64,000 nucleotides of DNA, taken from the NCBI GenBank assembly GCA_021772775.1, contig JAJFLH010000027.1, positions 62,001 to 126,000 on the forward strand. The letters run 5' to 3'. The stretch comes from Mariprofundus sp. (GTDB taxonomy: Bacteria; Pseudomonadota; Zetaproteobacteria; Mariprofundales; Mariprofundaceae). Shown piece after piece: positions 15,968-27,611 of the stretch (the first letter of the stretch is position 1; each line of letters starts with the position of its first letter). The position numbers and the translations under genes were made by a program. The notes under the pieces were generated by a model. It was given only the letters and a program-made list of their open reading frames with translations. It was not told the origin of the DNA and made no database searches.

Positions 15968-16792
15968 ATGACTCATGCTAGGGATCAATCCTCAACACTG
16001 GAGTTTAAGAGAGAGACTCAGCTCATAGAGGCGTTGGCTGTCTCTGAGCAACGTTATCAACAGGCTGAACAGGAACTTTTACAGCTCAATGAGCAGCTGA
16101 AGCAGTGCACTACTGAACTGCAGGCAACTCACAAGGTGCATGAAAGCTTTTGCCACTCAATCTCGCATGACTTACGTGCACCTTTGCGCGCGATGGCTGG
16201 TTTTTCTCAAGCCCTGCTTGAAGATTACAGTGATAAGCTTGATGAGCCTGGAGAGGATTACCTGCAGCGTGTGCAGCACTCAGCCCAAAAGATGGAGACC
16301 ATGATAGATGCTCTGTTGTGTGTCTCGCGTTTGGATCGAAATAGGGTACAAAAAACAGCAGTGGATCTCACTGCTTTGAGCAGAGAAGTATATGCTTCAG
16401 TAAGCAGCCAACAGGGTCAGGCGCAGGCTGAATTTATCGTTCAGGACGGCATCTATCTCCAGGCAGATAAAAGTTTACTCCAAAAAGCTTTGCATCAGCT
16501 CATTGATAATGCGCTGAAATTCAGTGTCAAACAGCCATCACCACGCATCGAGATTACGCTCAGGCAGGATGGGGAGCAGCAGGTCTGTTGTATTGCAGAT
16601 AATGGTGTCGGATTTGATATGATATATGCCCATAAGCTGTTTCAACCGTTTCAGCGCTTGCACGGAGTAAGTGAGTATCCTGGTTGCGGTATTGGCTTGG
16701 TGATTGTTCAACATATTATTCAACGCCATGGCGGCCGGGTTTGGGCAGAAGCTGAGCTCAATAGGGGAGCTAGATTTTGCTTCGTTATATAA
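15968..16792 (+). CDS. Cytoplasmic sensor histidine kinase without sensor domain
   Basis: A 274-residue kinase with an N-terminal coiled coil (about 20-55), a HisKA box (SHDLRAPLRAM, near residue 67) and an ATPase domain with N box (LIDNALKF), DNGVGF and a G2 box reading GCGIGL instead of GTGIGL. There is no membrane segment or PAS domain. It closely resembles the C-terminal third of the next protein (matching APLR-x-M-x-GFS, FQPFQRLH, IWCEAE/VWAEAE), so the two look like a tandem duplication. Its end overlaps the next gene by 16 bases. It is the first gene of a four-gene phosphorelay operon. Confidence 0.88.
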   Translation: MTHARDQSSTLEFKRETQLIEALAVSEQRYQQAEQELLQLNEQLKQCTTELQATHKVHESFCHSISHDLRAPLRAMAGFSQALLEDYSDKLDEPGEDYLQRVQHSAQKMETMIDALLCVSRLDRNRVQKTAVDLTALSREVYASVSSQQGQAQAEFIVQDGIYLQADKSLLQKALHQLIDNALKFSVKQPSPRIEITLRQDGEQQVCCIADNGVGFDMIYAHKLFQPFQRLHGVSEYPGCGIGLVIVQHIIQRHGGRVWAEAELNRGARFCFVI

Positions 16793-18615
16793 ACAGGGGA
16801 AATCTGCGCGGATTATTAACCTTTATCCTTGGTTTATTATTGACCTTGTTGATGGTGTTCGAACTGCAGGAGCATGGCGAACAGGATCAACTCAATAGAC
16901 TCGATGATATTGCCGAGCAGCATGCTGCTCTGATTCGTTTGGGTGTTTTACATGTAAATGAAGAAGTTGAAAGTACAGCAGCATTTATCAGCGATGATTT
17001 TTTGGAACATGATAATAATATGTTAAATGCGCTCAGGGACTATCAAACTTTTACCCGTCGTATTACTGGTGATAACGCATATGTTCTGGCATTGGAGTGG
17101 GTGCCTTACGTTACACATAATCGGCGCGTTGAATTTGAAAGCTGGATGCGTAAAGCTGGTTTCAGTGATTTTCACTTTATCGAGCGTGGAAACGATGGGG
17201 CTATGCTTGTTGCGAGCGAAAGAGACAGTTATTTTCCGGTATATTTTATTGAACCGATGGAAAACAATGAAGCCGCACATGGCTTTGATTTAGGCTCCAA
17301 CCCTGTACGTCTCAAAGCTATTTTAGCTGCTATGGAATCAGGTGAGGCAACGGCAACTGAGTCGCTTCGATTGCTGCAGGCTCCTGAATTAGGTAACTCT
17401 TTTCTCTATTTATATCCGGTGTATAAAAAAAGTATATCTGAGCAAGGGGATAAGAAAATATTCATCGGCATTACTCTGGCTGTGCTGAATGTCGAGATGC
17501 TTGTGCGCAACAGTGTGGCTGCGTTGAAACAAAAAAAACTCCACTTTTCGGTTTATGATGTTGATGGGAGTCAGCAGGATTTACTTTATACACATGGCAA
17601 AGTCAGGGGTTCTACAGAGCCAGTTACTAGTAAATTTATAAAAGTGGCAGATCGCAGCTGGCGTATTGATTTCTGGACAGAGGACTCCTTTGTCTCAGAA
17701 GATAGGAAGTGGGTCACCTTGGCGACGCTGTTTGCAGGTGTTGCCCTGTCACTGTTGTTAGGTCTTTATCTGAACGTTTTACAGGGACGTAATCGTACTA
17801 TTCAGCAGCGTGTTGATGAGCAGACCAGAGAGTTGCGTAATAGCATTCAAGAGCGTCAGCATGCAGAGCAAGAGGTCAGGAAACTCAATGTAGAGCTGGA
17901 GCGGCGGGTGGAGAAGCGCACTGCAGAGCTGGCGACAAGTAATCGGGAGCTGGAGGCATTCTGTTATTCGGTATCGCATGATCTACGTGCACCGTTACGT
18001 AGTATGGGGGGATTTTCCAATATCCTGATCGAAGATTATGGGGCGCAGATTGATGCGATGGGGCAGAGCCATCTTCAACGCATTGCTGGATCAGCCAGAC
18101 AGATGGGCACCTTGATCGATGATTTGTTAAATCTATCGCGTATTAATCGGGAAGCGATGTCCCGGGAAAAGGTCAATCTCACGCTATTGGCAGGAGAGTT
18201 TGCCGAACTGCTGCAAGAGCAGGAGCCTGAACGGCAGCTGGAGTTTACTATTCAGGATGACGTATTTGGATATGGCGACAAACATTTACTTCGTTTGGTG
18301 ATGCAAAATTTATTTGAAAATGCTGTTAAATATAGTGCCAAAGAGGATGTCTCGCGTATTGTATTTGGAGTGAATTCGAGCGCAAATGGACAGCTCTATT
18401 TTGTCCGTGATAATGGCGTTGGCTTTGACATGGACCATGCAAATAAAATATTTCAGCCTTTCCAGCGTTTGCATGCGATGAGCGAGTTTGAAGGCACTGG
18501 CATTGGATTGGCGACGGTGCATCGTATTATAGAGCGCCATCAAGGCCGTATTTGGTGTGAGGCTGAAGTTGGGCAGGGTGCTGTGTTTTATTTTGAATTA
18601 GGATTTGAGAGGTGA
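16777..18615 (+). CDS. CHASE-domain membrane histidine kinase
   Basis: A 612-residue kinase. An N-terminal membrane segment (about 10-28) leads to a periplasmic CHASE-like domain (about 45-270, with ALEWVPYV and DLGSNPVRLKAI). A second membrane segment follows near 305-330, then a coiled coil, HisKA (SHDLRAPLRSMGGFS) and an ATPase domain (DNGVGFD, GTGIGLATV). CHASE domains bind small extracellular ligands; the ligand here is unknown. The start is a TTG at 16777, seven bases after AGGGGAG and inside the end of the preceding kinase gene. The stop overlaps the response-regulator leader, so translation is coupled. Confidence 0.88.
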   Translation: MLRYINRGNLRGLLTFILGLLLTLLMVFELQEHGEQDQLNRLDDIAEQHAALIRLGVLHVNEEVESTAAFISDDFLEHDNNMLNALRDYQTFTRRITGDNAYVLALEWVPYVTHNRRVEFESWMRKAGFSDFHFIERGNDGAMLVASERDSYFPVYFIEPMENNEAAHGFDLGSNPVRLKAILAAMESGEATATESLRLLQAPELGNSFLYLYPVYKKSISEQGDKKIFIGITLAVLNVEMLVRNSVAALKQKKLHFSVYDVDGSQQDLLYTHGKVRGSTEPVTSKFIKVADRSWRIDFWTEDSFVSEDRKWVTLATLFAGVALSLLLGLYLNVLQGRNRTIQQRVDEQTRELRNSIQERQHAEQEVRKLNVELERRVEKRTAELATSNRELEAFCYSVSHDLRAPLRSMGGFSNILIEDYGAQIDAMGQSHLQRIAGSARQMGTLIDDLLNLSRINREAMSREKVNLTLLAGEFAELLQEQEPERQLEFTIQDDVFGYGDKHLLRLVMQNLFENAVKYSAKEDVSRIVFGVNSSANGQLYFVRDNGVGFDMDHANKIFQPFQRLHAMSEFEGTGIGLATVHRIIERHQGRIWCEAEVGQGAVFYFELGFER

Positions 18616-18617
18616 TC

Positions 18618-19076
18618 ATGAGAGAAACGATGTTGTTGGTTGAAGACAATCCTGATGATGAAGCGTTGACCTTACGTGTACTCAATAAACACAAAATATG
18701 GAATGATATCGTAGTAGCCCGTGACGGTGCGGAAGCGTTAGATTACCTGTTTGGCAGTGGAGTCTATGCAGATCGTGATACAAGTCAGATGCCCGAAGTC
18801 ATTTTGCTCGATTTAAAACTGCCTAAAATTGATGGTTTGGAAGTATTGCGTCGTTTGCGCGCAGATGAGCGTAGCAAATTGATCCCGGTTGTTATTTTCA
18901 CCTCTTCCAGTGAAGAGCAGGATATGATTACCGGTTATGATCTGGGGGCTAACAGCTATGTCCGCAAGCCTGTGGACTTTAATCAATTCTCTGAAGCTGT
19001 TGCTGAGCTTGGTATGTATTGGAAGCTACTTAATCAAACGCCGGAACAATTAAAGGTAGGCAGCAAGAGTGAGTAA
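18618..19076 (+). CDS. Single-domain response regulator (Rcp1-like)
   Basis: A 152-residue receiver domain with no output domain. The acidic pocket is VEDNPDD, the phosphoacceptor aspartate is in LLDLKLPKIDG, and the conserved Thr/Ser and Lys are in FTSSSEE and RKPVD. The long loop between strands is typical of Rcp1-type regulators paired with phytochrome-like kinases. I chose the ATG at 18618, five bases after GAGAGG, over the GTG at 18612. It probably takes phosphate from one of the two upstream kinases; it overlaps the next gene by eight bases. Confidence 0.9.
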   Translation: MRETMLLVEDNPDDEALTLRVLNKHKIWNDIVVARDGAEALDYLFGSGVYADRDTSQMPEVILLDLKLPKIDGLEVLRRLRADERSKLIPVVIFTSSSEEQDMITGYDLGANSYVRKPVDFNQFSEAVAELGMYWKLLNQTPEQLKVGSKSE

Positions 19077-20985
19077 AGCGATCAGATTACTGATCATTGA
19101 AGACAGTGAAGATGATGCCGCACTACTGCTATTGGAGTTGAAACGTGGCGGCATAGAGATAGAAAAACATCAGCGTGTTGAGACATCGGCCAGTATGCAG
19201 GATGCACTGGACATAGAGGTTTGGGACTTGATCACTGCTGACCATGACCTGCCAAGCTTCAGTGCGCCGGAAGCGATAAAGCTACTGAAGCATAGTGGTC
19301 AGGATATTCCCTTTATTATCGTCTCCGGCAGTATTGATGAGCAGATTGCTGTTGATTGCCTGAAAGCAGGTGCACACGATTTTATTGTGAAGGGGCGTTG
19401 GACACGGCTAGTGCCTGCTATAGCACGCGAACTCAGCGATGCAGAAATCAGACACCAACACCGGCAGCAGGAGGTGATGTTACGCAAACTATCGCATGTG
19501 GTAGGACAATCACCTAATGCCGTAAGCATCATCAATTCGAATCATTGTATAGAGTATGTGAATGCTGCATATATCGATAACACTGGCTTTAGCACTGACG
19601 ATGTTATCGGTAAAAATATTGAGCATATACCCAATAGCTCGGGAGCTGATATTTGTTGGCCGGAAATATGGCCTGTCATAAGTGCTGGTTATAACTGGCA
19701 AGTCAAACATAGTAATAACAACAAGGGTGGAGTGTCATACACTGAGATGATGTCGATTTCACCTATTCGTGATGAGAACAGTGATATTAGCCATTTTGCG
19801 ATTATTCAGCAGGATGTCTCTGAACAGGAAAGTTTAGAGGCCAAGTTTCATCAATCACAAAAGATGGAATCTATAGGTACCTTAGTGGGCGGCCTGGCGC
19901 ATGATTTTAATAATATGCTTTCCGGTATGCTGGGTAATATTTATCTGGCTAAAAGCAGTGCCAGGTCCATCCCCAAGGTGGTGGAAAAGTTAAAACATGC
20001 TGAACAGCTTGGTTTTCATGCCGGTGAGATGGTTGCTCAGTTATTAGCTTTTGCCCGTAAGGGTAAGATGACCATGAAGCAGTTTTCACTCTCTTCATTT
20101 GTGAAAGAGGCCTATAAACTGGCAAAGGTATCGATTTCAGAAGATATTAAACTTAGCTGCGATATCTGCCGTGAACCTCTAAAAGTGAAAGGGGATTCAA
20201 CACTGTTGCAGCAGGTGTTGATGAATTTGATGAATAATGCGCGAGATGCTGTTGCCGAATGTAGTGATCCTGAGATTCGTATTGCTCTGAATTATTTTAC
20301 AGCCGATGAACAGTTTAAGCGTTTGCATCCTGATCTGAAAGCGGTTGAGTTCGCACACCTGAGCGTGTCTGATAATGGGGGCGGTATTGAGCAAGCGAAC
20401 CAGAACAAAGTGTTTGAGCCTTTTTTCACGACCAAGGAGATGGGTAAAGGAACCGGACTGGGGCTTGCGATGACTTATGGTGCGATACGCAGCCATGATG
20501 GCATGATTGAGCTGCAGAGTGAGTTTGGTAAAGGAACAACGTTTCATATATATCTGCCGCTGTGTGAGCTGGGGGCTAAGGAGCTTGATAGCCATCAAGA
20601 AGCCGTTTTAAAAGGTAGTGAAGAAACTATCTTGCTGGTTGATGATGAAGAGGAGTTGTTAAGCGTTGCTGCGGCTGTATTGCATAGCTTGAATTATAGG
20701 GTGATAAAAGCTGCAGATGGAGTGAAGGCGATTGAGGTGTTTCAACAGCATTGCGACGACATTGATTTGGTGATTCTTGACGTAGTGATGCCGAATATGG
20801 GTGGCATGGAAGCAGCTCAAAAAATTCAGCAGATCAACCCGCAGATCAAAATTATTTTTACCAGTGGTTATGACCGGGACAATGTATTAAAACAGTCATC
20901 TGATTCTGCCAGTATACCAATACTACCTAAACCCTTTTCGCCTCAGTCATTAAGCCAAATAGTGCATCAGCAGTTAAGCTCGTAA
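19069..20985 (+). CDS. Hybrid histidine kinase: REC-PAS-HisKA-HATPase-REC
   Basis: A 638-residue soluble hybrid kinase. An N-terminal receiver domain (IIEDSEDD, aspartate in ITADHDLPSF) is followed by a PAS domain (about 145-255). The HisKA carries the NtrB-like phosphoacceptor AHDFNNMLSGM. The ATPase domain has MNNARDA, DNGGG and GKGTGLGLAM. A C-terminal receiver (LLVDDEEEL, aspartate in ILDVVMPNMGG) ends the chain. It starts at a GTG inside the upstream regulator gene. The kinase-receiver half is paralogous to two other hybrid kinases of this window. Confidence 0.9.
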   Translation: MSKAIRLLIIEDSEDDAALLLLELKRGGIEIEKHQRVETSASMQDALDIEVWDLITADHDLPSFSAPEAIKLLKHSGQDIPFIIVSGSIDEQIAVDCLKAGAHDFIVKGRWTRLVPAIARELSDAEIRHQHRQQEVMLRKLSHVVGQSPNAVSIINSNHCIEYVNAAYIDNTGFSTDDVIGKNIEHIPNSSGADICWPEIWPVISAGYNWQVKHSNNNKGGVSYTEMMSISPIRDENSDISHFAIIQQDVSEQESLEAKFHQSQKMESIGTLVGGLAHDFNNMLSGMLGNIYLAKSSARSIPKVVEKLKHAEQLGFHAGEMVAQLLAFARKGKMTMKQFSLSSFVKEAYKLAKVSISEDIKLSCDICREPLKVKGDSTLLQQVLMNLMNNARDAVAECSDPEIRIALNYFTADEQFKRLHPDLKAVEFAHLSVSDNGGGIEQANQNKVFEPFFTTKEMGKGTGLGLAMTYGAIRSHDGMIELQSEFGKGTTFHIYLPLCELGAKELDSHQEAVLKGSEETILLVDDEEELLSVAAAVLHSLNYRVIKAADGVKAIEVFQQHCDDIDLVILDVVMPNMGGMEAAQKIQQINPQIKIIFTSGYDRDNVLKQSSDSASIPILPKPFSPQSLSQIVHQQLSS

Positions 20986-21016: not shown

Positions 21017-22273
21017 TCATGATGGGCTGGTTGAAGGATTGCCTGCAATCCAGGCTCTATTTTTACCTGCATTCTTGGCTTGATACATAGCTGTGTCAGC
21101 CTCTTTAACCAGATCATCGACATTTGTGCCGTGTTCAGGGTAGGTCGAGATTCCTATGCTGGCACCAACGTGGCAGCTATTTCCTTTAAACTCTACAGAT
21201 TTGTTCAGCGTTTTAATGATGTTATTGGCGATATGTGAAACGCTATCGATGTTTTTTGGGTTACTCAGAATGATTGTAAATTCATCGCCACCCATTCTGG
21301 CCGCAACATCAGACTCTCTAATGCTTGCAGAGAGGCGTTTGCCCACCTCGATCAGCAGATGATCACCCATATCATGGCCCAGTGTATCATTGACCGCTTT
21401 GAAGCCATCAAGATCAATAAACAACAGTGCGACGATGCTTTTTGTACGCTTAGCTTGAGCTAAAGAGAACTCCAGCTTGTTATAAAATAGTGTTCTATTA
21501 GGCAGTTTTGTCAGTTGATCATACAGGGCCAGCTGAGTCATTTTATCTTCGGCTCTCTTGCGTTCAGTGATATCACGCAGAATGCCTACAAAATGTTTCT
21601 CTCCAGAGAGTATCATTTCTGAGATGTTGATCTCGATCGGGAACTCTTCGCCACTCTTACGCCGGCCAGTTAATTCGCGATAGCGATCAAGGTTGGTTTT
21701 TATACCATTGCGCAGATATTGGCGCAAATAGGAGTCATGGCTGTTTTGTTCCGCTTGAGGCATCAGTATGCTGATATTTTGTCCAATCAGGTGATCCTGT
21801 TCATAACCAAATATATGACCGATGGCAGGGTTAACATTTTCGATCGTTCCCTTTGTATCAATGGTCACAATGCCCTCACAAACATTGTGAATCACGGCTT
21901 TTAAACGCGACTGATTTTCCCATAGCTCTTCCTGTACGGATTGCAGACGTGAAATAATGCGCCAGAAAAGTTTGGCCTCTTGTCCGCCGATCACGCATCC
22001 TGCTCCAAGCTTGAGGGAAACCAGTTTTGAAATAGCTTCATCATTGGTCATGTTAAAAACCATGCATCCTTCAGCATGATCGAGTGCTTCTTCAAGTTCG
22101 AGAAAGACAGGAATATCTCGCGCTTTAGCATGCTGAATGCCGATCGCATTTTCATTGCTGTCAACAATACCACTCACATTAATGAGTGGTTCCTCAGCAA
22201 AAATATCCAGAAGGGCTGTCCCTCCAGCGCCAGCGCCGATAATTAAAACTGGATCACCATGTTGATTGTTCAT
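21017..22273 (-). CDS. Diguanylate cyclase with N-terminal Rossmann domain and PAS
   Basis: A 418-residue protein. Residues about 8-100 form a nucleotide-binding-type domain starting IIGAGAGGTALL (GxGxxG) with an acidic residue ending the second strand (GIVDSN). A PAS domain follows (about 120-235), then a GGDEF domain with the full GGDEF active site and an upstream RESD inhibitory site, correctly spaced by five residues. It should make cyclic di-GMP with product inhibition. The unusual Rossmann part suggests sensing of a dinucleotide or CoA-like ligand, which is inference. I chose the ATG at 22273, eight bases after a perfect AGGAGG, over an upstream in-frame start. It converges with the phosphorelay operon. 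Confidence 0.88.
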   Translation of the reverse strand: MNNQHGDPVLIIGAGAGGTALLDIFAEEPLINVSGIVDSNENAIGIQHAKARDIPVFLELEEALDHAEGCMVFNMTNDEAISKLVSLKLGAGCVIGGQEAKLFWRIISRLQSVQEELWENQSRLKAVIHNVCEGIVTIDTKGTIENVNPAIGHIFGYEQDHLIGQNISILMPQAEQNSHDSYLRQYLRNGIKTNLDRYRELTGRRKSGEEFPIEINISEMILSGEKHFVGILRDITERKRAEDKMTQLALYDQLTKLPNRTLFYNKLEFSLAQAKRTKSIVALLFIDLDGFKAVNDTLGHDMGDHLLIEVGKRLSASIRESDVAARMGGDEFTIILSNPKNIDSVSHIANNIIKTLNKSVEFKGNSCHVGASIGISTYPEHGTNVDDLVKEADTAMYQAKNAGKNRAWIAGNPSTSPS

Positions 22274-22675
22274 GAACAAAACCTCCTGGTTTGAGCGAAG
22301 TGGCAAATAGACAGTCATTTAGCGCGGTGGTGCAGTTGTTCGTTTCGCGGTCATCCTGAATCGAGGGGTAGCAGTAATTGTGCCAACTTTTTTGCAATGG
22401 ATGCGTTGTTCCTATCAGACCTCAATAAAGTGGGCTTCTGTACGCAAAACTTGCAGGTAGGGGGATATTGCTTTCTATATAGCCCTTTAGAGCAGATGGC
22501 TATTTTGGCGTTCTGGGTTTGGGGTTTTGATATATTGACGCTGGTGTTGAAGCATCACATGGTTATGGTGTTTTAGTAATGTTGAGCTTGTGATGCTATA
22601 CAAGTGCGCGATGTAACGGGTCATTCTGGCCTGTGCGGAAATATTGAATAATCAGTGTTTCTCTAAGGGGATGAG
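22274..22675. other. 402-base intergenic region between divergent cyclase and symporter genes
   Basis: It holds the ribosome binding sites of both flanking genes (AGGAGG for the cyclase on the minus strand, AAGGGG for the symporter). I found no gene, tRNA or convincing promoter pair. The middle is rich in short T runs. Control elements for both genes presumably lie here. Confidence 0.5.
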
Positions 22676-24054: not shown

Positions 24055-26466
24055 ATGCCAACAATGAAACTTGTTGATCATATTATGTCTACGAATGTTA
24101 TAACCGCTCAGGCCGATATGCTGGTTGTAGAAGTGCTGCATATATTATCAGAGCATAAAATAAGTTTTATTGTCGTGTGTGATGGCTCTAAACCAGTCGG
24201 TGTCATCACCGAACGCGATATTGTTCGTTTGACTTCAGAATCACAGGATCTCTCCGGCTCGATTGCTCAAGAGGTGATGAGTAGCCCGGTTGTTGTTGCA
24301 GTCAGTAACGAGGTGGATATTGCTGAGGCCTATCATCGGCTGAAACTGCAGCATAAACGCCATTTGGTGATTGTGGATGCAGGTGGTGATATTGCCGGTG
24401 TGGTAACGTTGACTGACTTTATTGCTCATCTTGGTGTTGAAGCTTTCGTTCAACATAAAGAACTCAGTCAGGTGCTTACTGCTGAACCGATTACTGTGAA
24501 TCCAGCGGCTCCCGTGATGAATGGTATCAGGCTGATGGTAGAGCATAAAATCAGCTGTATTATCGTTGCTGAGGCGCAAAAGCCAGTAGGTATTCTAACC
24601 GAGCGTGATATCTCTCGAATCAGAGCTTCAGGTGATGATATTTCGGATAAGCAGATATGCGAACTGATGACAGCGCCGGTGCTTACAGTACATGCGGATA
24701 TGAGTACTGCAGTTGCTGCTGAACTTATGCGCAGAGAGAAGATCAGACATCTGATTGTTGTTGATGAGAAAGGGCTTCTTATTGGTGTTGTGACAGAAAC
24801 CAATATCGTTAAAGGCATGGAAGGGAGGTATGTTAAGAGTCTGGTTGAATTACTGGACGAAAAAGATGAGGAGTTGCGCACGATCAATTCTGAGCTTGAG
24901 GTACGAGTAGCAAGAAGGACGGCAGAGCTGAGGCTGGAAGTTGAAGCTCACCAAGCTTCGCAGGATGCCATGTCCAAACTGACTCAAGCTTTAGAGCAAG
25001 CTGGTGAAGCTGTATTGATTACAGATAGACGAGGTGCGATTGAATACGTTAATCAAGCTTTTATCACGACAACGGGTTACGCACTGACTGAGGTGATGGG
25101 TAAAAATCCAAGCATGCTTCAATCAGGACGGCAGAGTGAATCCTTTTATCAGCATATGTGGCAATCACTTGATGATCATGGTGCCTGGAAAGGTATACTT
25201 TGGAACAAACGTAAAGATGGTGAGACTTATCCTGAGCAGTTACATATTCGTGCGATTAAGGATCAGTATGGAGAGGTGAGCAATTATGTGGGCACATTCT
25301 CTGATATCACAGAGAAAATGAGACTGGAAGCAGAATACAGGCATGCCCAACGCATGGAGGTTGTCGGTTCACTGGTCGGTGGTGTGGCGCATAATTTTAA
25401 TAATATTTTAGCGGGTATGACTGGGAAATTATATTTGGCAAAGCTCAAAGCCAAAGCATCCCCTGAGATATTACCTTATCTGAAATCGATGGAGAAATTA
25501 TCACTGCAGGCTGCTGATATGATTCGCCAGCTACTTACCTTTGCCCGCAAAGAGGTGACTGAAAAAGCCAATCTGCCCCTGACGGCTTTGATGGAAGAGG
25601 CGTTGAAGACATCGCGTTTGGGTATTTCTGAAGATATACAGATTTTATCTGATTTTAGTGATGAATCGTTAACTGTTTTTGGTGATGCAACACAGCTACA
25701 ACAGGTTGTGATGAATATGGTGAATAATGCGCGAGATGCGATGCATGAGCAGAGGGAGAAAGTCATTTCCGTGAGTTTAAAACGCTTTTATGCTGATGAG
25801 GCCTTTATCAGCAAACATTCAACGCTTCATGCTAAAGAGCTGGCTTGTCTGAGCATTGAAGATAGTGGTTTCGGCATTTCCAAGGCTGATTTGGAGCACA
25901 TCTTTGAGCCGTTTTTCACCACCAAAGAGATTGGCAAAGGTACGGGGCTGGGGCTGTCCATGAGCAAAGGAGCCATTGAATCACATGGTGGCATTATAGT
26001 GGCTAATTCCCGGCTGGGGAAAGGCACTGAATTTCATATCTATCTGCCTCTGGTCGATGAAACTGCGAATATGATGCAAGCCGATGCGGAAACTATTTTC
26101 GAAGGCAATGGTGAGCTTATTCTGCTGGTTGATGATGAGAGCATGGTGATTGAAGGGACTGAGGATATTTTGTGCTCAATGGGTTATCGCGTCATTACTG
26201 CATGCGATGGAGAGCAGGCCTTTAAACTGTTTCTGGAGAATCAACATGATATTGCATTAGTCATCACCGATATAGTGATGCCTAATATGGGTGGCGTGGA
26301 GCTTGCTAAAAAGCTTAGAGAATATTCTGCTATGCCTGTGATCTTTATGACGGGGTATGGTTATGAGCAGGAGATTCAACAAGGCGAAAGCTCGATGATG
26401 ACCATCGCTAAGCCATTTCGTGTTTCAAATTTGAGTCGGAGTATTTATAAGTTGTTGCACGAGTGA
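24055..26466 (+). CDS. Hybrid histidine kinase with four CBS domains, PAS and receiver
   Basis: An 803-residue soluble protein. Four CBS repeats occupy about residues 1-265, each with the VGVITERDI-like strand-helix end; CBS pairs often bind adenine nucleotides. A short coiled coil leads to a PAS domain with its PAC end (about 300-425). The HisKA phosphoacceptor box reads AHNFNNILAGM, with Asn where the usual residue after His is Asp. The ATPase domain has GKGTGLGLSM. A C-terminal receiver has its aspartate in VITDIVMPNMGG. AAGGGAG precedes the ATG. An energy-state input controlling phosphotransfer is my inference. Confidence 0.9.
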   Translation: MPTMKLVDHIMSTNVITAQADMLVVEVLHILSEHKISFIVVCDGSKPVGVITERDIVRLTSESQDLSGSIAQEVMSSPVVVAVSNEVDIAEAYHRLKLQHKRHLVIVDAGGDIAGVVTLTDFIAHLGVEAFVQHKELSQVLTAEPITVNPAAPVMNGIRLMVEHKISCIIVAEAQKPVGILTERDISRIRASGDDISDKQICELMTAPVLTVHADMSTAVAAELMRREKIRHLIVVDEKGLLIGVVTETNIVKGMEGRYVKSLVELLDEKDEELRTINSELEVRVARRTAELRLEVEAHQASQDAMSKLTQALEQAGEAVLITDRRGAIEYVNQAFITTTGYALTEVMGKNPSMLQSGRQSESFYQHMWQSLDDHGAWKGILWNKRKDGETYPEQLHIRAIKDQYGEVSNYVGTFSDITEKMRLEAEYRHAQRMEVVGSLVGGVAHNFNNILAGMTGKLYLAKLKAKASPEILPYLKSMEKLSLQAADMIRQLLTFARKEVTEKANLPLTALMEEALKTSRLGISEDIQILSDFSDESLTVFGDATQLQQVVMNMVNNARDAMHEQREKVISVSLKRFYADEAFISKHSTLHAKELACLSIEDSGFGISKADLEHIFEPFFTTKEIGKGTGLGLSMSKGAIESHGGIIVANSRLGKGTEFHIYLPLVDETANMMQADAETIFEGNGELILLVDDESMVIEGTEDILCSMGYRVITACDGEQAFKLFLENQHDIALVITDIVMPNMGGVELAKKLREYSAMPVIFMTGYGYEQEIQQGESSMMTIAKPFRVSNLSRSIYKLLHE

Positions 26467-27173: not shown

Positions 27174-27552
<379 letters not shown>

Positions 27553-27611
27553 ATTTAATATTTAGTCGTCTGCCGTTAGGCTCGGGCAACGATGTGAGGC
27601 AGAGATATAAC

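Follow-up and report, generated by a model that had tools for sequence, protein, structure and literature searches.

Rex senses NADH/NAD+ with a Rossmann-type NADH-binding domain and binds DNA via a winged helix. Few examples are known of a ligand that directly links c-di-GMP to metabolism. The parts of a c-di-GMP review considered here describe c-di-GMP enzymes that O2 controls through haem PAS or protoglobin, and further O2 or redox routes through hemerythrin, flavin-PAS and disulfide; the word "Rossmann" is absent from its main text (PMC8846402). For AxDGC2 and RmcA it has been described that cellular reducing power sets c-di-GMP turnover through FAD in PAS, and a Rossmann domain is not mentioned in the accessible part of that source (PMC12540587). 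Searches of open PMC papers for Rossmann or NAD domains in signalling proteins likewise gave, among the matches listed, no title or abstract start that describes the domain reported below.

The stretch of 64,000 nucleotides from a Mariprofundus contig that was analysed here, in the following called the window, encodes a protein that can be compared with these systems. It resembles Rex in its putative Rossmann sensor: sequence matches recur, though they are weak, and 3wg9 is matched in structure. It differs in having an enzyme of second-messenger synthesis as its output, and no winged helix was found in it. As with AxDGC2 and RmcA, a c-di-GMP enzyme would be tied to cellular reducing power, but those two read FAD in PAS, whereas the separate Rossmann domain of the window protein would read the nicotinamide pool directly. 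With the haem PAS proteins FixL, DosP and AxPDEA1 (and the globin-coupled cyclase DosC) it can be compared by a FixL-like PAS that has the equivalents of the haem-ligand histidine and the O2-contacting arginine; FixL, however, is a kinase, DosP and AxPDEA1 are phosphodiesterases, and the PAS of the window protein sits between Rossmann and GGDEF. With Gfo/Idh/MocA proteins, acylating acetaldehyde dehydrogenase and related NAD(P)-dependent dehydrogenases it shares the fold and sequence of the cofactor half, but it lacks their catalytic or substrate half and is fused to signalling domains. Finally, its PAS-helix-GGDEF core is that of PAS-GGDEF(-EAL) proteins such as PA0861 (5xgb), from which it differs by the additional N-terminal Rossmann domain and the lack of an EAL domain.

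Gene, domain order and the GGDEF output

The open reading frame to which an earlier note on this DNA had assigned the protein was borne out, on the minus strand (Table 1). Its ATG lies at 22273 and its stop codon ends at 21017. The longest open reading frame in this frame starts at 22318, but AGGAGG stands 8 bases upstream of the ATG at 22273, which makes the latter the better start. Pfam places PAS (133-237) and GGDEF (249-406) above their cut-offs in the window protein, and both domains had already been named in the earlier note, in which the FixL-type haem resemblance of the PAS went unremarked.

Table 1. Positions in the window of the gene and of its encoded features
Feature	Position	Strand	Basis
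Rossmann-PAS-GGDEF diguanylate cyclase gene (predicted activity)	21017..22273	-	418 aa; open reading frame and Pfam
N-terminal Rossmann-type dinucleotide-binding domain (predicted), residues 1-97	21983..22273	-	AlphaFold2 model, PDB matches, conservation
Glycine-rich loop IIGAGAGG (GxGxxG), residues 11-18	22220..22243	-	conservation in 90 copies
D38, acid ending beta-2	22160..22162	-	D 86 and E 4 of 90; model strand 31-37
Long helix from Rossmann to PAS, residues 97-131, opening with conserved G-x-E-A-K-x-x-W	21881..21985	-	models and conservation
FixL-type PAS, residues ~120-240	21554..21916	-	Pfam PAS_9/PAS; phmmer FixL 2.2e-23, DosP 3.2e-10
H179, equivalent of BjFixL haem ligand His200	21737..21739	-	gap-free alignment; co-conserved with R199
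R199, equivalent of BjFixL Arg220 (H-bond to bound O2)	21677..21679	-	gap-free alignment; co-conservation
GGDEF, residues 249-406; I-site R319xxD322; GGDEF motif 328-332	21056..21529	-	PF00990 E 2.7e-54; invariant columns

The GGDEF domain reaches 183.7 bits with PF00990, where the cut-off is 23.8. Its core residues D287, N295, D296, G328, G329, E331 and F332 are invariant among 31 aligned sequences, the window protein included, and the same holds for R319 and D322 of the RxxD inhibitory site. The GGDEF motif and the I-site are intact, in agreement with the earlier note, and diguanylate cyclase activity is predicted from these residues.

Elsewhere in the window, the translations of 16777-20985 read as a sensor kinase, a single-receiver protein and a receiver-PAS-kinase-receiver protein, in a run convergent with the cyclase gene, and a bacterial RNase P RNA of class A lies at 27175-27554.

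The N-terminal Rossmann domain

The model of residues 1-127, calculated with AlphaFold2 from an alignment of 62 rows, is confident (pLDDT 88.6, pTM 0.79) and contains strands at 7-12, 31-37 and 71-74 with helices between them, followed by a helix at 97-125. The predicted model shows the beta-alpha-beta unit by which a Rossmann domain is recognized, with the glycine loop where helix 1 begins, and the conservation agrees with it; this substantiates the GxGxxG domain reported in the earlier note. In the full-length model (pLDDT 86.0) a helix at 98-131 runs into the PAS, and with a pTM of 0.51 the relative placement of the domains is unsure. A fold prediction had been proposed before, with a fold that lacks a nucleotide pocket as the adverse outcome; judged by sequence and fold, this outcome did not occur, and the model and the alignment point to a Rossmann domain with conserved pocket positions.

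With the Rossmann model as query, Foldseek at E<=0.001 matched 15 solved chains, the best of which were acylating acetaldehyde dehydrogenases and NAD-bound GenD2. With VIA-align the best match was the acylating acetaldehyde dehydrogenase 1nvm (Z 12.4, rmsd 1.8, 95 aligned), and GenD2 with NAD (6nor, Z 11.9), KanD2 with NAD (6jw6, Z 11.2) and Rex (3wg9, Z 9.7, rmsd 6.8 over 117) were also matched. The profile search against the PDB returned acetaldehyde dehydrogenases at 1.9e-8, GenD2 at 2.6e-4 and Rex at 0.0013; the rankings separate related nucleotide folds only modestly, since formyltransferases and PurK-type enzymes reach a Z of about 10 in the structural list and PurN was found at 2.4e-4 in the profile search. 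In the comparison with Rex, CoA-binding and sugar-epimerase folds suggested in the earlier note, Rex matches weakly, CoA_binding matches below its threshold, and the best structural matches are NAD-dependent dehydrogenases. A sugar-epimerase-like or Rex-only identity was dropped, as among the matches listed the best rows are acylating acetaldehyde dehydrogenases and proteins of the Gfo/Idh/MocA type.

The family profiles agree with the structural matches. GFO_IDH_MocA was matched in 61 of the 62 domain sequences at E<=0.1 (best 1.5e-8) and CoA_binding in 26 of them, and at E<=0.01 the NCBIfam models for acetaldehyde dehydrogenase (PRK08300), NeuD and Rex (PRK05472.2-4) matched 38, 17 and 12 of 59 members, respectively. 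In the whole window protein the N-terminal ~110 residues gave sub-threshold Pfam matches to CoA_binding (0.011) and GFO_IDH_MocA (0.028). The window domain alone, as a single sequence, matched CoA_binding (0.0021), GFO_IDH_MocA (0.015) and PglD_N (0.083), all below the Pfam cut-offs, had the NeuD sugar acetyltransferase as its sole NCBIfam match at E<=0.01 (0.00055, below cut-off) and was without a match in PHROGs at E<=0.1. Expressed in bits, it does not reach the cut-offs of PF01408, the Gfo/Idh/MocA N-terminal domain (16.4 against 24), of the CoA-binding PF02629 (19.2 against 22.3) or of TIGR03570, which covers the Rossmann and acetyltransferase parts of NeuD/PglD (19.6 against 160.8, spanning residues 9-71 only). 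Some relatives do pass the PF01408 cut-off, for example L158 with 31.9 bits. The input domain of the window protein is thus assigned by none of the curated models scanned in Pfam, NCBIfam and PHROGs.

The C-terminal substrate domain of Gfo/Idh/MocA proteins is absent according to Pfam and the model, and PAS and GGDEF stand in its place; among the Pfam matches of the window protein at E<=1 there is no catalytic domain of a dehydrogenase, and none for the catalytic and dimerisation part of acylating acetaldehyde dehydrogenase. The winged helix of Rex is likewise absent, as the Rossmann fold begins at about residue 7 with nothing ahead of it. Given the confident predicted fold and the recurrence of the fusion in other genomes, the Rossmann-cyclase fusion is more than chance.

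The dinucleotide pocket and its ligand

Conservation was read from 90 non-redundant copies below 80% identity, drawn from 185. In the glycine loop, G13 is kept in 89 of 89 copies, G15 in 88 of 90 and G18 in 82 of 90, and position 38 is acidic in every one of the 90; further well-kept positions are N74 (71/90), T/S76 (87/90), G97 (81/90) and W104 (69/89). We take the glycines and position 38 to be the usual contacts to the dinucleotide phosphate and the adenosine ribose, and the positions of this predicted pocket are kept family-wide and rank with the best conserved ones of the domain. An acid that ends beta-2 is the usual mark of a preference for NAD(H) over NADP(H), and would be so here. Against this stand a glycine in the D38 column of the closest solved relatives, the acetaldehyde dehydrogenases, according to the alignments, an A at position 16 of the window protein where R is usual in the family, and a partial loss of the glycine loop in three of four MCP-tailed relatives. 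Among the ligand classes NAD(H) is favoured, on the grounds of the acid ending beta-2, the structural matches to NAD-dependent dehydrogenases and the presence of Rex among the weaker profile matches.

It is possible, and somewhat less probable than our preferred reading, that the Rossmann domain senses NADP(H), CoA/acetyl-CoA or a nucleotide sugar, so that the cyclase would read anabolic reducing power, acyl-CoA supply or envelope precursors. Acylating acetaldehyde dehydrogenases handle both NAD and CoA, and it is these enzymes that are the closest solved relatives; in Pfam the window domain matches CoA_binding best, in NCBIfam it matches NeuD alone at E<=0.01, and position 16 is basic in 68 of the 90 copies (R in 57, K in 11). 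Against NADP(H) stands the acid at position 38 in all copies. The solved, NADP-bound myo-inositol dehydrogenase 4l8v is titled A12K/D35S, and D35 of that enzyme would be the equivalent of D38. Against CoA stands that CoA_binding was matched in far fewer members than GFO_IDH_MocA.

Distribution and architectures

In the host genome assembly (3.12 Mb, 40 contigs) the Rossmann domain was found in 3 of 26 GGDEF matches, and all three copies are on GGDEF proteins. The two paralogues of the window protein are a Rossmann-GGDEF protein of 313 aa (P0002), in which the Rossmann domain is the sole input found, and a protein of 477 aa (P0003, L003:457-1890) with an unassigned middle, residues ~140-290 of which are without a Pfam match at E<=0.01. 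In L117, which has a layout similar to that of P0003, Pfam found only GGDEF at E<=0.0001.

The same proteins are present in genomes of the host's genus. At E<=0.001 the domain was matched in 43 of 61 genomes, counting the host's. At E<=1e-6 a phylum sample of 398 genomes, which includes the host's clade, yielded matches in 102 when up to 10 candidates were scored in each, and the phylum of a Nitrospira genome yielded them in 35 of 99, with 22 of these at E<=1e-15. For the phylum of a Deltaproteobacteria record the count was 58 of 198. The weakest matches of these surveys could be ordinary dehydrogenases or Rossmann proteins of another kind. The named matches often come from Mariprofundus, Ghiorsea and other Zetaproteobacteria, and named loci also come from Gallionella, Sideroxydans, Methylobacillus, Nitrospira and a Planctomycetes bin (80 kept of 94 relatives).

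The architectures were read from a panel of 89 proteins, complete or partial, that had been thinned by domain identity at 80%. At E<=0.001 Pfam found GGDEF in 69, PAS_9 in 44, HATPase_c in 16, HisKA in 12, GAF_2 in 9, Response_reg and MCPsignal in 4 each and the LuxR-type GerE in 3 of them, among the best 25 of 36 families. These varied partners indicate a modular input, and from its sequence relatives the predicted Rossmann domain is a widespread module on GGDEF proteins, histidine kinases, hybrid kinases and MCP tails. The finding is real and wider than one window could show. A tree-based count of domain shuffling was dropped in favour of the Pfam counts, as 42 of 86 inner branches were open with 125 columns, and so were pattern-based architecture labels, which mistook an SGEEF-like PAS stretch for the GGDEF motif in at least the window protein, L076 and L086 and pooled hybrid kinases with kinases.

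Several architectures stand apart. At three loci (L172:1222-2811, L174:1240-2820, L175:550-2169) a LuxR-type HTH (GerE), Rossmann, GAF and GGDEF are found in one protein, which is a cyclase architecture with a DNA-binding-type domain. A tandem N-terminal Rossmann pair occurs at L179:1090-3351, L180:1003-3333 and L182:1-2277, followed in L179 by PAS domains and then a histidine kinase. Proteins of ~1030 aa at L114:3853-6930 and L125:2794-5922 combine Rossmann, GAF, histidine kinase, two receivers and a GGDEF domain with a motif that by eye is degenerate (RVDEF/RIDEF). In a Nitrospira group of 11 loci (L100-L108, L110, L113) a protein that looks like a response regulator by eye flanks a Rossmann histidine kinase and is possibly its two-component partner. 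Open frames of 225-261 codons at L120-L123 carry a Rossmann-like domain and an MCP signalling tail, with MCPsignal found in L120. No neighbour gene that would name a ligand was seen by eye among the 25 largest neighbour clusters of 80 loci (L034-L113), in which open reading frames were picked greedily and some clusters may be wrong frames.

The PAS domain

A phmmer search against solved structures returned 13 rows below 1e-8 for the PAS, all of them haem PAS of FixL or DosP/EcDOS types, before a gap to 4e-7; yddU in this list is EcDOS. In BjFixL, according to the part of the source considered here, His200 is the haem ligand, Arg220 contacts O2 and Arg206 matters for switching (PMC10765370). 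The first and second of these residues align gap-free to H179 and R199 of the window protein, whereas an equivalent of the proximal Arg206 is absent, with Q185 in its place.

The pair was followed through 49 PAS segments, the window's included, that were thinned at 90% and chosen by the spacing from Rossmann to GGDEF motif. Both residues are present in 40, neither in 8, the histidine alone in one and the arginine alone in none (Fisher p 2e-8, a value that ignores kinship and counts sequences rather than independent events). In the 8 losses the whole loop is altered; they include the methylotrophs L036 and L043 as well as L025, a close relative of the window protein in its starred four-row set in the tree. 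As the PAS of L043, which lacks the histidine, still matches FixL first (5.3e-22), a FixL match by itself is no proof of haem and was dropped as such, and the His/Arg pair is relied on instead. We read the haem PAS, from these alignments, as lost in several relatives that keep Rossmann and GGDEF. By sequence the PAS of the window protein belongs to the FixL type; most likely it contains a b-type haem and serves as an O2 sensor.

Different first matches were obtained for two more PAS domains in the window: 3ewk and NifL for that of a hybrid kinase at 24055-26466 (among the best 60 of 119 rows), and phototropin LOV for the other. All of these are flavin types. By eye, the N terminus of that hybrid kinase has CBS-like repeats.

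A sensing PAS raises the question whether it acts alone, with the Rossmann domain degenerate and serving as a scaffold for dimerisation or for the recruitment of a partner. Of the four MCP-tailed relatives that were read, three (L120, L121 and L123, but not L122) have lost part of the glycine loop, so some copies may not bind a dinucleotide, and a scaffold would also suit the missing catalytic half and the long terminal helix, which is of a kind seen in dimeric signalling proteins. We nevertheless consider it improbable, because a scaffold has no need of G13, G15, G18 and D/E38, yet nearly all of the 90 divergent copies have them, because P0002 has no other input that we could find, and because the 8 of 49 relatives without the haem pair have retained the Rossmann domain. 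That the domain is a remnant enzyme which oxidises or reduces a small metabolite would fit its sequence kinship to dehydrogenases, but is very improbable in view of a helix that past residue 97 leads straight into PAS and of the absence of a catalytic dehydrogenase domain among the Pfam matches of the window protein at E<=1.

Proposed mechanism

Our preferred reading, to which we give a nearly even chance, is a soluble cytosolic cyclase in which two inputs are stacked, one for a dinucleotide (most likely NAD(H)) and one for haem-bound O2. The N-terminal domain would correspond to an NAD(H)-dependent dehydrogenase of which only the cofactor half is present, without the catalytic half, and would have been recruited as a sensor. 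NAD(H) or a like nucleotide would bind to it, and the bound or redox state would be relayed via helix 97-131 to the PAS, where the haem-O2 state would modify the relayed signal. Both inputs together would set the geometry of the GGDEF dimer and hence the c-di-GMP output, with product feedback at the I-site. We infer the identity of the ligand, the haem, the catalytic activity, the sign of the regulation and the connection with a microaerophilic iron oxidiser, which has to keep reducing power and O2 in balance.

More tentatively, and with rather less than even confidence, the reading can be extended to the family, as an unnamed NAD(H) input that resembles a Rex without its DNA-binding part and stands before cyclases, histidine kinases, hybrid kinases and chemoreceptor tails in several phyla. 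In the window protein, joined to a putative haem PAS, it would let a single cyclase detect when reducing power and O2 coincide.

Meaning for iron-oxidising bacteria

Neutrophilic iron oxidisers live where Fe(II) meets O2, and their NADH is made by uphill electron flow. Zetaproteobacteria isolates are described as enriched in c-di-GMP signalling gene groups (PMC8250860), and two sensory COGs with links to GGDEF and EAL as comprising 43 genes in Sideroxydans ES-1 and 46 in Gallionella ES-2 (PMC3770913), in the parts of these sources considered here; "Rossmann" is absent from the main text of both. The domain is small and predicted to be soluble, and a version of the cyclase with a single input is available in the short Rossmann-GGDEF paralogue. 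The protein may tie sticking versus swimming to redox state and O2 in an iron-oxidising bacterium, and if this is true, a cyclase that reads both reducing power and O2 would help to explain how iron oxidisers choose to settle.
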